In this document: in pieces, positions 20,175 through 26,160 of the stretch
How positions within the stretch are numbered: position 1 is the first letter of the stretch
Layout of the letters: every line of letters begins with the position of its first letter
Source: Microbispora hainanensis
Lineage (GTDB): Bacteria; Actinomycetota; Actinomycetes; Streptosporangiales; Streptosporangiaceae
Direction of reading: 5' to 3'
Length of the DNA stretch: 64,000 bases
NCBI RefSeq assembly: GCF_036186745.1
Contig: NZ_CP108086.1
Coordinates: 5,952,001 to 6,016,000, forward strand
Translations under genes and position numbers: made by a program
The notes under the pieces: generated by a model
What the model saw: only the letters and a program-made list of their open reading frames with translations
Told to the model about the DNA's origin: nothing
The model's database searches: none

Positions 20175-20972
20175 TCACGGCTCAGCCGGGCGGGGGTGCC
20201 ACTGCCCGCGCGACTTGAGCACGTCGCGCAGGCCGCTGATGTTGTCCGTCATGATCCCGTCGACGCCGAGATCGAGCAGGTGGGCCATGGTCACCGGGTC
20301 GTTCACCGTCCACACGTGCACCTGCATCCCGATCGCGTGCGCGGTGCGCACGAGGGCGCGGGTGGTCACCCGCAGGCCGCGGAACCCGATCGGCGCCTGC
20401 GCACACGGCACGCCCGCCCGGGCGAGCCCGGACAGCAGCCGGCCGTACCCGCCTCCCATCGCGGCCGTACGCAGGGCGGCCAGGCCGCGCGGGCCGAGCG
20501 AGAAGCAGACCTCCCGGTCGATCGCCCGCCGGGCCCGGGCCAGCCGCGCGTCGGAGAACGAGGTCAGGCACACCCGGTCGTACGCGCGGGTGCGTCGGAT
20601 CGCCTGGGCCAGCGGCGCGATCGCGGCGCTCTCCTTGACGTCGATGTTGAAGCGTACGTCCGGCCAGGTGCCGAGCAGGTCTTCCAGCAGCGGGATCTCG
20701 TGCCGGCCGCCGATCCTGGCCTCGCGCACCTCACGGTAGGGCATCCGCGAGATGCGGCCGGTGCGGTCGGTGACCCGGTCGAGGGTGTGGTCGTGGAACG
20801 CGAGGAGGACGCCGTCGGCGGTCGCGTGCGCGTCGGTCTCCAGGTAGGTGTAGCCGAGCTCGACCGCCCGGGAGAAGGCGGCCATGGTGTTCTCGCGGGC
20901 CTCCGCCGCTCCGCCTCGATGCGCGAAGGCGAGCGGTCCGGGGTGGTCGAGGAACGCGAAACGGCGATGCAC
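20175..20972 (-). CDS. Glycerophosphodiester phosphodiesterase
   Basis: A 265-residue TIM-barrel enzyme that hydrolyses deacylated phospholipid headgroups to glycerol-3-phosphate and an alcohol. The GDPD motifs are visible: FAHRGG (catalytic His), ENTMAAF, YLETDAHATADGV (metal-binding Glu and Asp), FHDHTLDRVT (second His), FNIDVKES, and VWTVND near the end. There is no signal peptide, so it is likely cytoplasmic. It follows the ACP gene on the same strand after 113 bp and may or may not be cotranscribed with the FAAL operon. Confidence 0.92.
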   Translation of the reverse strand: MHRRFAFLDHPGPLAFAHRGGAAEARENTMAAFSRAVELGYTYLETDAHATADGVLLAFHDHTLDRVTDRTGRISRMPYREVREARIGGRHEIPLLEDLLGTWPDVRFNIDVKESAAIAPLAQAIRRTRAYDRVCLTSFSDARLARARRAIDREVCFSLGPRGLAALRTAAMGGGYGRLLSGLARAGVPCAQAPIGFRGLRVTTRALVRTAHAIGMQVHVWTVNDPVTMAHLLDLGVDGIMTDNISGLRDVLKSRGQWHPRPAEP

Positions 20973-21085: not shown

Positions 21086-21382
21086 TCACTCCGGGTCCGG
21101 CGGGGCCTGTACGGTTCGATCTTCCGGCAGGAGATCGGCCAGATGGGCGGTCATGTCGTCGATCGTCGGGTGGTCCCAGGGCATGGTCGGCTCGACCAGC
21201 ACGCCGACCGTCTCCTCCACGTCGACGCACAGGCCGAGCGCGTGGACCGAGTCCAGGCCGTACGTGCGGAGCTTCACCGTCGGGTCGATATCGGCGGGCG
21301 GCAGGCCGAGATAGGCGGCCACCCGCTCGATCAGCCATCGGCGCAGGGCATCGGGGGACATCGGAGCGGAGGCGGCGCTCAT
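21086..21382 (-). CDS. Acyl carrier protein
   Basis: A 98-residue carrier with the phosphopantetheine attachment serine in GLDSVHAL (about residue 49). The fold signature AAYLGLPPADIDPTVKLRTYG precedes it, and the recognition helix region DVEETVGVLVEPTMPWDHPT follows, in the style of PKS/FAAL-partner ACPs rather than the housekeeping FabC ACP. The ATG overlaps the FAAL stop by 4 bp (ATGA), so it is coupled to the ligase and is its probable acyl acceptor. Confidence 0.93.
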   Translation of the reverse strand: MSAASAPMSPDALRRWLIERVAAYLGLPPADIDPTVKLRTYGLDSVHALGLCVDVEETVGVLVEPTMPWDHPTIDDMTAHLADLLPEDRTVQAPPDPE

Positions 21383-23049
21383 GCGACGGTCTCAAGCAGG
21401 TCGTTGACCGCGGGTTCGAGTTCGGCGTGCAGCGGGGTGAGGCGGCCGCTGAGGAACAGCTCCCGCATGTGCCGGCGGCGGAGCTTGCCGCTGGTGGTCT
21501 GCCGCACCGCGCCACGAGGCACCAGCAGCAGGCTCAGCGGGATGCCGAACTCCCGCGTCACCCGATCCATGATCCGGTCGGCCGCTTCGCCGAGGTCGCC
21601 CGGCTGTCCCCGCCGCATCTCCTGGACCAGGACGACGTGTTCCCCGCCGTCGTGGCGTCGTACGCCGAAGGCGGCGCTGCGGCCCGCGGCCGGGTTGGCC
21701 CGTGCGGCGGCCTCCTCCAGGTCCTGCGGGTAGAGGTTGCGGCCGTTGACGATGATCACATCCTTGATCCGCCCGGTCACGTAGAGCTGGCCGTCGAGCA
21801 GGAACCCCAGGTCGCCGGTGCGCAGCCAGCGGCCGTCGCCCGAGTGGAAGCCTGCGTGGAAGGTCGCGCGGGTCTCCGCCGGGCGGCCCCGGTAGCCGAG
21901 GGCGACGCTGGGGCCGCAGACCCAGATCTCCCCGATCTCGCCGTCGGCGAGGGGCCGGAGGCCGTCCGGATCGACGATCCGCAGGTCGAGCCCGGAGACC
22001 GGCCCGCAGGCGACCAGGGGCGTCCCCTCGGGCGCCGGGACCGCCCGGTGCCGTTCCAGCGCGGCGGGATCGAACCGCCGTACGGTCACGCCCTGCCCCT
22101 GCGGCACGCAGGTGACCATCAGGGTGCACTCGGCCAGGCCGTAGCCGGGATTCCAGGTGGCCGGCCGGAAGCCCGCCGGTGCGAACCGCCGCTCGAACGC
22201 GGCGAGCGTGGCGGCCCGGATCGGCTCGGCTCCGCTGATGGCCATCGCCAGCGTGGACAGGTCGAGCCCGGCGAGCTGCTCGTCGGTGATCCTTCGGGTG
22301 CACCAGGCGTACCCGAAGTCCGGCGACACGGTCCAGTCCGCGCCGTACCGGGTGATCAGCTCCAGCCAGCGCACCGGCCGCGCGACGAACGCGCCGGGCG
22401 ACATGAACACCAGGTCGGCGCCCGCGTGGAGCGCCTGGAGCTGGAGGCCGACCAGGCCCATGTCGTGGTAGTGCGGCAGCCACCCGGCCAGCCGCCGCAA
22501 CGGCCTGCGGGCCAGCAGCCGGAACAGCTCCAGGTTGTGCAGCAGGTTGCCGTGCGAGACCTCGACGCCGCGCGGGTCGCTGGTCGAGCCGGAGGTGTAC
22601 TGCAGGTAGGCGAGGGTTCCTGCGGACATGGCCGGCGGGGCCCAGGCGTCCGGATCGGCGGGGGCGGTGTCGGGCACGCGGGCCGAAAGATCGGACAACC
22701 CGGACGCGTGCGCGTGATCGGTCAGGACCAGCCGCGCGCCGGCGTCCCGCATCAGCGTCCGTACGCGGTTCGCATGGGGTGCGCCCACGTCCGGCAGGGG
22801 AGCGGGGATCGCCGGCACCCGGGCGTACAGACAGCCGAGGAACGCCACCGTGAAGTCGAGCCCCGCCGGGTAGAGCAGCAGCACCGGCTCGTCGGTCAGG
22901 CCGTGTGCGGCGAGCCACACGGCGGTGGCGCGCGCCCGCCGGTCCAGCTCGGTGAAGGTGAGCCGGTCCGTGCCGCCGTCGTCCCGCACGAAGACGAACT
23001 CCCGATCGTCGCTGACGCGGTTCCGTACGTGTGTCACGAAATCGGTCAT
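21379..23049 (-). CDS. Fatty acyl-AMP ligase (FAAL)
   Basis: A 556-residue adenylate-forming enzyme expected to activate a fatty acid as acyl-AMP and load it onto the neighbouring ACP rather than CoA. Core motifs are YTSGSTSDPRGVEVSHGNL (P-loop, about residue 165), GWLPHYHDMGLVGLQ, the FAAL-type NPGYGLAECTL, RTGDLGFLLDGQLYVTGR (A8) and GRNLYPQDLE. The sequence aligns with FAALs better than with CoA ligases, though the FAAL-specific insertion needs an alignment to confirm. It overlaps the upstream SDR and the downstream ACP by 4 bp each. Confidence 0.92.
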   Translation of the reverse strand: MTDFVTHVRNRVSDDREFVFVRDDGGTDRLTFTELDRRARATAVWLAAHGLTDEPVLLLYPAGLDFTVAFLGCLYARVPAIPAPLPDVGAPHANRVRTLMRDAGARLVLTDHAHASGLSDLSARVPDTAPADPDAWAPPAMSAGTLAYLQYTSGSTSDPRGVEVSHGNLLHNLELFRLLARRPLRRLAGWLPHYHDMGLVGLQLQALHAGADLVFMSPGAFVARPVRWLELITRYGADWTVSPDFGYAWCTRRITDEQLAGLDLSTLAMAISGAEPIRAATLAAFERRFAPAGFRPATWNPGYGLAECTLMVTCVPQGQGVTVRRFDPAALERHRAVPAPEGTPLVACGPVSGLDLRIVDPDGLRPLADGEIGEIWVCGPSVALGYRGRPAETRATFHAGFHSGDGRWLRTGDLGFLLDGQLYVTGRIKDVIIVNGRNLYPQDLEEAAARANPAAGRSAAFGVRRHDGGEHVVLVQEMRRGQPGDLGEAADRIMDRVTREFGIPLSLLLVPRGAVRQTTSGKLRRRHMRELFLSGRLTPLHAELEPAVNDLLETVA

Positions 23050-24110
23050 TCGGGCAGTCCCTCCCGTACGTACCAGGAGACGAGCCGGTCGAGGGTCGCG
23101 GGAGTGACGGCGGGTGGGGCCATCGCGTGCCGCCACGCGAAGTCGTAGTGGTGCCGGAAGTAGGTCGCGGTGTATTTGGCCCGCATGTTGACCACCGCCT
23201 CGAACCGGCCGAACGGCCTGTCGCGGATCTCTTCGGTTGTGGCGGCGACCAGTTCGATCGGCAGGCGGGCGTTGATCACCTCGAACAGGTCGCGCACCCG
23301 CACGGTGGCTCCGTTCACCACGTGGGAGATCGGGGACGGCCGGTCGGCGGCGGCGAGCGCGACCAGCCGGGAGACCGTCGTGTCGACGGGGGTCAGATGG
23401 AGGTTGGCGTCCGGGTGGCAGGGCAGGCGGACCCGTTCCCCCGGCGTGCGCCGGGCGAAGAAGGCGATCACCCGGAGGAAGTCGTACAGGCCGTAGTCGG
23501 TCAGCGCCCGCCCGGTGCGGGAGTGCCCGACCATCACGCCCAGCCGGGCCACCAGGGCGGCGCCCTCGCGGACGGACCGCGACCGGGCCAGCGCGATCTC
23601 CGCCTGCCGTTTGGAGTATTCGTAGAAGTTCCGGAACCGGTCCGGCGGGGCCTGCGACGGCCAGTCCTCGGGCACGGGGCCCTCGGTGTCGAGCCCGCAC
23701 TGGTAGGCCGTCCCGACGAGGATGTAGCGCGAGCCGGGCCGGGCGTGCCGCTCGTACGTGGCCAGCGCGTTGGCCGATCCCGCGACGTTCACGTCCAGGA
23801 GCTCCTCCTCGCGGCGTGGGAAGAAGGTGACGAGCGCGGCGACGTGCCAGTAGACGCAGGGCTCGGCGAAGACCTCGGTGACCGGGAGGCCGAGGTCCGG
23901 CTCGTCCAGCGCCAGCCCGCGCACCCGCAGGCGTCCCGCCGGGGACTCGTCGAGGCCGAGGCAGCGCAGCGCGTCCGCGACCCGGCGGCGCACCACCTCG
24001 GCGGACGCGCGAGCGAGGGCGATCACCTCCTCGCCCCGGGCCAGCAGTGTGCCGATGAGATGAGAGGCCACGAAGCCGTTGGCCCCGTCGATCACGTGAA
24101 CCCGCACCAC
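23046..24110 (-). CDS. NAD(P)-dependent SDR, thioester-reductase/epimerase-like
   Basis: About 354 residues of the extended (atypical) SDR family to which carboxylic-acid-reductase R domains belong. The nucleotide motif is DGANGFVASHL, in which the third glycine of GxxGxxG is alanine. Catalytic residues are in VGTAYQCG (Thr) and YEYSKRQAE (Tyr-x-x-x-Lys), and LGVMVGHSRTG is typical of thioester reductases. Being first in an operon with FAAL and ACP, it could reduce an ACP-bound acyl thioester or modify the acyl chain. GTG at 24110 behind GGAAGG is chosen; an ATG at 24158 has no such site. Confidence 0.82.
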   Translation of the reverse strand: MVRVHVIDGANGFVASHLIGTLLARGEEVIALARASAEVVRRRVADALRCLGLDESPAGRLRVRGLALDEPDLGLPVTEVFAEPCVYWHVAALVTFFPRREEELLDVNVAGSANALATYERHARPGSRYILVGTAYQCGLDTEGPVPEDWPSQAPPDRFRNFYEYSKRQAEIALARSRSVREGAALVARLGVMVGHSRTGRALTDYGLYDFLRVIAFFARRTPGERVRLPCHPDANLHLTPVDTTVSRLVALAAADRPSPISHVVNGATVRVRDLFEVINARLPIELVAATTEEIRDRPFGRFEAVVNMRAKYTATYFRHHYDFAWRHAMAPPAVTPATLDRLVSWYVREGLPE

Positions 24111-24178
24111 GGCACCTTCCCACAAGAGGTAGCGGAAGGTAAAGTCACGATCGCTCACAGTGACATCAGGGAGGGTGC

Positions 24179-24742
24179 ATGCTCAACGACCTGCAGCAGC
24201 GCAAGCTGGCTCATCTGTTCACGCTTCTGGACGTGGACGACGACGGGACCGTCGACAAGATGGACTACACCGCCTCGGCCGACCGGCTGGTGAACGCGTT
24301 CGGGTTCGCACCGGGCTCCACGGAGTCGCGGCGGGTCCGGGAGCGGTACGCGAGGCTGTGGGACGAGGTGACCCTGCCCATGGACGCCGACGGGGACGAG
24401 CGCGTCGAGCTGAAGGAGTTCACGGCCGGGTTCTACCGGTTCGTCACCCAGCCCGGCACGGGCTACCACACCCATATCGCGCCGGTCGCCGACGCCTTCT
24501 ACGACCTGATGGACACCGACGGGGACGGGCGGATCACCCGGATCGAATACCTGCGGATGGCCGAGAGCGCCTTCCGCCTGTCGGAGGCGAACGCCGCCGT
24601 CGCGTTCGAGCGTCTCGACCTCGACGGCAACGGCTCACTGAGCCGGCAGGAGCTGCACGTGGCCAACGAGCAGTTCTTCCGCAGCCCCGACCCGGAATCT
24701 CGCGGCAACTGGCTGTTCGGCCCGCTCCCCGCGCTGGGCTGA
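24179..24742 (+). CDS. EF-hand calcium-binding protein (calerythrin-like)
   Basis: A 187-residue protein with four EF-hand loops: DVDDDGTVDKMD (about residue 19), DADGDERVELKE (about 70), DTDGDGRITRIE (about 113) and DLDGNGSLSRQE (about 147). Loops 1, 3 and 4 carry canonical 1-3-5-12 ligands; loop 2 has Glu at position 6, where Gly is usual, so it may bind weakly. Size and layout match calerythrin of Saccharopolyspora and the sarcoplasmic calcium-binding family. GGGAGGG precedes the ATG. The gene is divergent from the SDR-FAAL-ACP operon, sharing a 68-bp spacer. Role unknown: a calcium sensor or buffer. Confidence 0.92.
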   Translation: MLNDLQQRKLAHLFTLLDVDDDGTVDKMDYTASADRLVNAFGFAPGSTESRRVRERYARLWDEVTLPMDADGDERVELKEFTAGFYRFVTQPGTGYHTHIAPVADAFYDLMDTDGDGRITRIEYLRMAESAFRLSEANAAVAFERLDLDGNGSLSRQELHVANEQFFRSPDPESRGNWLFGPLPALG

Positions 24743-24838
24743 CCGCCGTACGGCGGTCCGGGGCGCGGAGCGAGGCCCGGGCCCTTGAAGGCGCGCGACT
24801 TTCAGGCGCGTGGCGGGGCTCGCGACTTCGAAAGACAC

Positions 24839-24906: not shown

Positions 24907-25458
24907 CTATCCGGCCGCCGACGCCCACTCCTGCCGCCGGGCCTCCGCCATCGAGATGGCCGCGGCGACCGCCACGTTGACCGAGCCGACCCTGCCGACC
25001 TGCGGGATGTAGGCCACCGAGTCTGCCGCCTCCAGGCAGGCGGGGGAGCAGCCGTGGTCCTCGCTGCCGAGCACCAGGCAGACGTCGCCGCCGAGCTTGG
25101 CCTCGTGCAGGGGAACGGCGTCGCCGGTCAGCTCGACCGCGACCACCCGGAAGCCGTCCTCCCTGGCGGCGCGTACGGCCTCGGCGACCGGGACCGGCTC
25201 GTGCCACTCGACCAGCCGGTCGGTGCCGAGCGCGGTCTTCTGCGCCTTGGGATTGGAGGGCGGGGTGGCGTTGCCGGCCAGCCAGATCGTCTCCACGCCG
25301 AAGGCGGCGGCCGTACGGAAGATCGATCCGATGTTGAACGGACCGGTCACCGATTCGAGGATCAGCGCGAGACGGCCCTCGGTGTTGCGGCGCCAGGTGC
25401 GGTTGAGCCGTTTGACGTCGGTCGGCTTGAGCTGCCTGCGCGGGTTGGGAGTGCTCAT
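24907..25458 (-). CDS. TrmH/SpoU-family RNA 2'-O-methyltransferase
   Basis: A 183-residue SPOUT methyltransferase. The three family motifs are visible: NIGSIFRTAAAFG (motif 1, about residue 42), LVLGSEDHG (motif 2, about 127) and IPQVGRVGSVNVAVAAAI (motif 3, about 150), which together form the knotted SAM site. It would methylate a ribose 2'-OH in tRNA or rRNA; the site cannot be read. It starts 7 bp after the stop of the upstream methyltransferase gene, so they are probably cotranscribed. Confidence 0.92.
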   Translation of the reverse strand: MSTPNPRRQLKPTDVKRLNRTWRRNTEGRLALILESVTGPFNIGSIFRTAAAFGVETIWLAGNATPPSNPKAQKTALGTDRLVEWHEPVPVAEAVRAAREDGFRVVAVELTGDAVPLHEAKLGGDVCLVLGSEDHGCSPACLEAADSVAYIPQVGRVGSVNVAVAAAISMAEARRQEWASAAG

Positions 25459-26080: not shown

Positions 26081-26160
26081 GTGCCCAAACGTACCAACGC
26101 CGGAGACCGGTGATCTCCGCGCCTGCGGGGGCGCTGCCGCCGGGATCGTGCCGTGTGCGG

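Follow-up and report, generated by a model that had tools for sequence, protein, structure and literature searches.

In the biosynthesis of tambjamine YP1, PtTamA and PtTamH convert a C12 acid into an acyl-acyl carrier protein (acyl-ACP) and then into an aldehyde and an amine, and acyl-CoA gave no product (PMC9594044). In the excerpted text of the same article, the thioester reductase (TR) is described as AAR-like, and the ANL–ACP and transaminase–TR proteins are fusions (PMC9594044). The locus analysed here belongs to the 8.8-Mb genome of Microbispora hainanensis and lies in a stretch of 64,000 nucleotides (contig NZ_CP108086.1, positions 5,952,001 to 6,016,000 of the forward strand), the whole of which is called the window. 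It encodes a fatty acyl-AMP ligase (FAAL), an ACP, a short-chain dehydrogenase/reductase (SDR) of predicted acyl-ACP/thioester-reductase type and a protein with four EF-hands. The logic of FAAL, ACP and separate reductase is already known, and only the partnership with the EF-hand protein appears to be new. In the open-licence literature, no paper was found that joins FAALs with EF-hand or calcium-binding proteins, and the main text of a 2025 FAAL review contains no word beginning with calcium, EF-hand, reductase or aldehyde (ketoreductase would not count; PMC11837247). As shown by loci in unrelated genomic contexts, which share just these four genes, they form a self-contained unit.

The three enzyme genes lie on the minus strand. 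The SDR (23046 to 24110, 354 aa) is the first gene of the trio, followed by the FAAL (21379 to 23049, 556 aa) and by the ACP (21086 to 21382, 98 aa), the end gene of the unit, with ATGA overlaps at 23046–23049 and 21379–21382. The SDR starts with a GTG codon at 24110, with GGGAAGG upstream, and the EF-hand gene (plus strand, 24179 to 24742, 187 aa) is transcribed divergently from it across a 68-bp intergenic region (24111 to 24178). This arrangement had been described in an earlier note, written from the DNA letters alone; the cassette with its ATGA overlaps, the four-EF-hand neighbour and the 68-bp gap were all confirmed, the EF-hands by Pfam matches and every gene at its coordinates. The note had also claimed that no ketosynthase or nonribosomal peptide synthetase (NRPS) module is present. 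The FAAL is the sole AMP-binding place in the window among the 39 listed genome-wide, so that the window holds no NRPS adenylation module and the claim stands for that part; no ketosynthase search was made.

The EF-hand gene and the SDR gene occur together in two families of different orders. In a survey of 341 genomes of the own family, the SDR was found in 14 (E ≤ 1e-25) and an EF-hand orthologue in 13 (E ≤ 1e-40), all of them within the 14 SDR genomes; the four genes keep the same order and orientation in all 13, with one additional gene separating FAAL and ACP in G223. The fourteenth genome, G314, carries a 44% identical SDR beside NRPS genes, and no EF-hand match was found in the 18 kb around it. 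Among 100 relatives, 9 contain the SDR (E ≤ 1e-30) and the same 9, own genome included, contain a close EF-hand orthologue (82–100% identity); some EF-hand match at E ≤ 1e-10 is present in 24 of the 100, the non-orthologues being at most 39% identical. A sample of 394 genomes from the class has the SDR in three, which all belong to the own genus and include the own genome. In the Pseudonocardiaceae, the family of the Lentzea genome, an EF-hand orthologue occurs in 13/390 genomes, and in 13/13 SDR and FAAL start divergently beside it (the 1.5-kb flanks stop before the ACP); the SDR is found in 12 of 297 genomes drawn, all 12 among the 13 with the EF-hand gene. The EF-hand orthologue is therefore beside the SDR in 26/26 genomes of the two families.

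A scan of genome_contigs with two short SDR peptide patterns, which may miss diverged cassettes, gave 19 loci, overlapping with the surveyed genomes so that the counts are not added. All four genes are present in 18 of them, distributed over Microbispora (5), Microtetraspora (4), Sinosporangium, Nonomuraea and, with seven loci, Lentzea, Allokutzneria, Umezawaea and Saccharothrix; the nearest named loci are of Microbispora, with M. rosea at 93% identity for the SDR and 95% for the EF-hand protein. The exception is a metagenome-assembled genome (MAG) of the Prolixibacteraceae (Bacteroidota), with only an SDR of the same DGANGFVASH type (L081 9663–10766, 31% identity). Cassette EF-hand proteins are 57–95% identical to that of the window, and other EF-hand proteins matched in cassette genomes reach at most 40%; four Pseudonocardiaceae genomes searched at E ≤ 1e-10 have one orthologue each (70–73%), all their other matches being at or below 40%. 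Around 10 of the 27 weaker EF-hand matches (31–39% identity), no cassette-type FAAL, ACP or SDR was found within 7–14 kb. No SDR match indicating plasmid carriage was found in PLSDB at E ≤ 1e-20, and PADLOC, searched for defence systems, gave no match for the four proteins.

The borders of the unit were defined by grouping 18 loci by their flanks, using open reading frames of at least 100 aa and at least 50% identity within at most 6 kb of each flank (at L080, 2.8 kb on the EF-hand side). This yielded 12 contexts with no flanking reading frame common to different contexts, and at E ≤ 1e-8 the flank families recur in at most 3 of the 12; within the tested flanks, a larger cluster was rejected on this ground. 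In the window the unit is bordered by a GDPD gene (20175–20972) and a SpoU/TrmH methyltransferase gene (24907–25458), which form a stable Microbispora neighbourhood. They were rejected as members, since Microbispora genomes that lack the unit keep them and other genera do not have them beside it.

Within the genus the unit is present in 7 of 15 genomes, own included, and eight lack it. The GDPD and TrmH genes are adjacent in seven of these, and in the eighth, G002, they are separated by a different 2.7-kb stretch (L053 3738–6401) that contains no remnant of the four genes. The unit is lost in G012 at least, where the flanking proteins are up to 99% identical to those of the window and three remnants in the spacer follow each other as in the unit: the final bases of the ACP gene (to 21103), roughly 14 codons from the start of the SDR gene (window 24068–24113, 83%, E 3.6e-8) and the 3' end of the EF-hand gene (24699–24767, 91%, E 1.7e-18). 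It was probably lost in G013 as well, whose scar keeps the ACP end to 21104. Judging from these two scars, the EF-hand gene did not persist once the enzymes were gone. In G014 the spacer is longer and resembles the region between the EF-hand and TrmH genes (71%), with no gene piece past the ACP stop, and in G001, G005, G010, G011 and G002 no trace of the unit was found at the site, where gain and full loss are both possible. Another presence/absence spot lies at 26150–26160 of the window, where a methyltransferase and a VWA gene are adjacent and several relatives have about 1–5 kb of other DNA (for example L042 10627–13681 and L046 10775–15700).

The FAAL matches Pfam AMP-binding (PF00501) with 193 bits, above the cut-off, and the NCBIfam fatty acyl-AMP ligase models with 274–373 bits; one model named as a CoA ligase, PRK07768, scores 310 bits, the other CoA-ligase models shown at most 142, and none of the 25 NCBIfam models shown reaches its curated cut-off. 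The strongest matches in the Protein Data Bank (PDB) are 7r7f (1.4e-106), 3kxw (1e-91) and FadD23 (1e-79), and of the 16 matches at E ≤ 1e-40, 6 carry names of fatty-acid AMP or acyl-adenylate ligases; those ranked highest are called polyketide synthase and saframycin synthetase B, which we take to be FAALs. The motifs YTSGST, YGLAE, RTGDLG and TTSGK are invariant in 19/19 cassettes including the window, and the C-terminal lysine is kept along with these adenylate-forming motifs. By these model scores and PDB matches, the enzyme is closer to FAALs than to CoA ligases. The ACP matches PP-binding with 47.3 bits, above the Pfam cut-off, and its phosphopantetheine serine, in YGLDS, is likewise invariant in the 19.

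The best Pfam model of the SDR is NAD_binding_4 (male sterility/acyl reductase), with 72 bits against a cut-off of 20.1, and only SDR-type models match; the residues T134, Y163 and K167 and the GxxGxx[AG] motif are present in 19/19 loci including the window. Its AlphaFold2 model (pLDDT 86.9) was compared with solved structures by VIA-align. The nearest is rice DPW, an acyl-ACP reductase (7eoz; Z 30.2, 340 aligned, rmsd 2.8), followed by the reductase (R) domains of myxalamid MxaA (29.4), an archaeal NRPS (28.6) and an S. coelicolor PKS (28.1) and by the fungal (26.9) and bacterial (26.3) R domains of carboxylic acid reductases (CAR). Ranks 1–8 are DPW and R domains (26.3–30.2), and the best epimerase stands at 25.6, a margin of less than 1 from rank 8. 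The myxalamid R domain comes first in Foldseek and also in a sequence profile search (6.1e-10). The fold is thus predicted to be closer to those of acyl reductases than of epimerases, and the reading best supported by residues, fold and operon together is that an acyl chain carried by the ACP is reduced. Two relatives are of interest here. In G314 the SDR relative (L064 2841–9782, 42–44%) directly adjoins NRPS genes and a methyltransferase gene, again without an EF-hand match, and is possibly an in-trans reductive release enzyme. In Nonomuraea sp. PA05 an acyl-CoA-dehydrogenase-like gene lies between FAAL and ACP (L063 4097–5650 / L082 12639–14192), whose product could desaturate the acyl-ACP, and a glyoxalase-fold gene follows the ACP. 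The NRPS neighbours and the inserted gene both fit thioester-bound substrates.

The EF-hand protein matches the best Pfam EF-hand models with 53.3 bits, above the cut-offs. In each of the four loops, positions 1, 3 and 5 are occupied by Asp or Asn and position 12 by Asp or Glu in 19/19, positions 1, 5 and 12 being invariant within each loop; loop 1 has Asp at position 12, so that Mg2+ may be bound there. Ca2+ binding is predicted from these intact ligand positions, and no signal peptide is evident by eye. In M. catharanthi (G008, L044/L068) the orthologue has 185 aa, a TAG codon standing two residues earlier, and is otherwise intact. By sequence, the insect JHDK (4.5e-20) and 3aka (1.5e-16), by its entry title a putative calcium-binding protein of S. 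coelicolor, outscore calerythrin (1nya, 2.8e-13); the label 'calerythrin-like' of the earlier note is fair, although calerythrin is not the nearest relative by sequence.

The model that we propose, and consider probable on balance, is that the four genes encode one unit that converts a fatty acid into an acyl-ACP and then, in trans, into an aldehyde or alcohol, with a Ca2+-binding protein as its fourth part. The FAAL would use ATP to adenylate a fatty acid, or a related one, and load the acyl group onto its dedicated holo-ACP. The SDR, playing in trans the part that the reductase domain has in a CAR, would reduce the acyl-ACP thioester with a nicotinamide cofactor, giving an aldehyde or going onward to the alcohol. 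The EF-hand protein, probably cytosolic, would most likely be a Ca2+-responsive partner that binds either the product, which is hydrophobic, or one of FAAL, ACP and SDR. The reaction order, the substrate class, the reduction and any calcium role are what we infer, and the weakest step would be the binding partner of the EF-hand protein and its switching by Ca2+. The interpretation of the earlier note, which had proposed acyl-ACP formation, perhaps with release as aldehyde or alcohol, and calcium acting with or on the pathway, is thereby upheld in part: co-occurrence shows that the EF-hand gene belongs to the unit and is conserved in it, and in its catalytic residues and nearest fold the SDR agrees with acyl-ACP/thioester reductases.

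Several observations weigh against this model. Linkage alone implies neither contact nor Ca2+ control, and the EF-hand gene, being on the opposite strand, must have its own transcript. No clear single clade of cassette EF-hands emerges from the EF-hand tree, in which the paralogue branches are long (one change in 28% of 200 bootstrap trees). The SDR piece in G012 has weaker competing matches in other parts of the unit (best E 1.9e-6), and shuffling the G012 spacer 200 times produced some match at E ≤ 1e-3 in 4 cases. With 70.7 bits, the SDR misses the cut-off of NCBIfam TIGR01746 (thioester reductase domain, 213.35) and so is not assigned to that family; its identity to solved R domains is only 16–25%, and further R domains of CAR and AusA (Z 24.6–25.2) are interspersed with epimerases. 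Finally, no FAAL, ACP or EF-hand of cassette type was found on the 12-kb contig of the Prolixibacteraceae MAG, so that the link to acyl-ACP does not hold throughout this SDR subfamily.

As to the role of the EF-hand protein, it is conceivable, if less than probable, that it is a carrier that holds the hydrophobic aldehyde or alcohol and releases it when triggered by Ca2+, as the Renilla coelenterazine-binding protein does with its ligand. Some EF-hand relatives bind hydrophobic ligands, and the AlphaFold2 model (pLDDT 91.5) is nearest by VIA-align to that very protein with its ligand (2hps, Z 22.4, 178 aligned, rmsd 2.3), tied with calexcitin (21.5–21.6); JHDK (21.2), SCP (19.5), the S. coelicolor protein 3akb (17.8), calerythrin (16.1), photoproteins and okadaic acid binding protein 2.1 also matched. 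A compact four-EF-hand fold of the SCP/calexcitin/coelenterazine-binding kind is accordingly predicted, and the recurrence of transporters with the unit in at most 3 of the 12 contexts also leaves room for a carrier. Against it, Foldseek places JHDK first, the Ca2+-loaded apo form 2hq8 reaches just Z 16.5, and the same fold is found in proteins usually called Ca2+ buffers.

A tentative possibility, too, is a calmodulin-like regulator that binds the SDR, the FAAL or the ACP when Ca2+ rises. Between the loci of the two families (Nonomuraea L082 left out), the EF-hand protein is the best conserved of the four, with 71% identity against 63% for the SDR, 59% for the FAAL and 52% for the ACP, many of its invariant residues lie outside the loops, and the gene is absent where the enzymes are absent. 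Its distances correlate with those of the SDR (r = 0.94), although such a correlation is also yielded by shared descent.

That the EF-hand protein is a mere Ca2+ buffer or stress protein, held in place by the shared promoter region, seems unlikely. SCP and calerythrin, which are related to it, are commonly regarded as buffers, it has a separate transcript, and the region shared with the SDR is short, 68–84 bp in the 19 loci (starts chosen automatically). Their alignment contains three invariant GTA columns between two Shine-Dalgarno-like sites; the core reads GTAAAGT in the window, where TAAAGT at 24140–24145 could be the −10 element of the EF-hand gene, any promoter role of this region being putative. 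Retention through such a region alone is difficult to reconcile with 12 unrelated contexts and with the 26/26 orthologues beside the SDR, and the conservation of the EF-hand protein and its joint loss with the enzymes argue against a mere buffer.

It is also improbable that the SDR is an epimerase or dehydrogenase acting on another substrate, with the trio making acyl-ACP for an enzyme encoded elsewhere. The missed TIGR01746 cut-off, the Bacteroidota relative without FAAL and ACP and a fold common to extended SDRs would suit this alternative, but the best Pfam model is NAD_binding_4, the closest solved structures are those of R domains and DPW, the SDR is ATGA-coupled to the FAAL, and one relative stands beside NRPS genes. 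Chance adjacency of the EF-hand gene, which the earlier note had named as an outcome that would refute its reading, is ruled out by co-occurrence in both directions and by the 12 contexts.

To our knowledge, the roles of EF-hand proteins in bacteria are largely open. It is a speculative and rather doubtful extension of the proposed model that the unit is a calcium-gated lipid pathway, in which the aldehyde or alcohol made by the trio is held or controlled by the EF-hand protein and a rise in Ca2+ releases the lipid or switches its synthesis; if true, it would be a bacterial counterpart of the Ca2+-triggered ligand release by the coelenterazine-binding protein. As one kind of EF-hand protein stands beside a small enzyme set in 26/26 genomes, and as this set can be rebuilt in vitro, the action of Ca2+ on a bacterial lipid pathway can be tested directly, with four proteins and with natural loss strains as controls. 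The locus also offers a stand-alone FAAL–ACP–reductase set by which fatty acids could be converted into aldehydes or alcohols.

Compared with known systems, the EF-hand protein shares its compact four-EF-hand fold with calerythrin (1nya), 3aka/3akb, calexcitin and the coelenterazine-binding protein (Z 16–22), for which literature searches found no link to FAAL, ACP or SDR. DPW, the nearest solved fold to the SDR, is only 17% identical to it and is a longer plant protein that is not known to have a FAAL or EF-hand operon. CAR (A-PCP-R; 5msv, 8aep) carries the same three activities, and the SDR model aligns with its R domains at Z 25.1–26.9; it is one polypeptide, whereas the locus described here has three proteins, a FAAL-type activator and an EF-hand protein. 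TamA/TamH resembles the unit in that an adenylating enzyme and an ACP load a fatty acid and a separate thioester reductase releases the aldehyde, and the excerpted text on it names no EF-hand protein (PMC9594044). It relies on fusions and a transaminase, whereas in Microbispora the functions are encoded by separate genes, with a 354-aa SDR without a transaminase domain and with an EF-hand partner.

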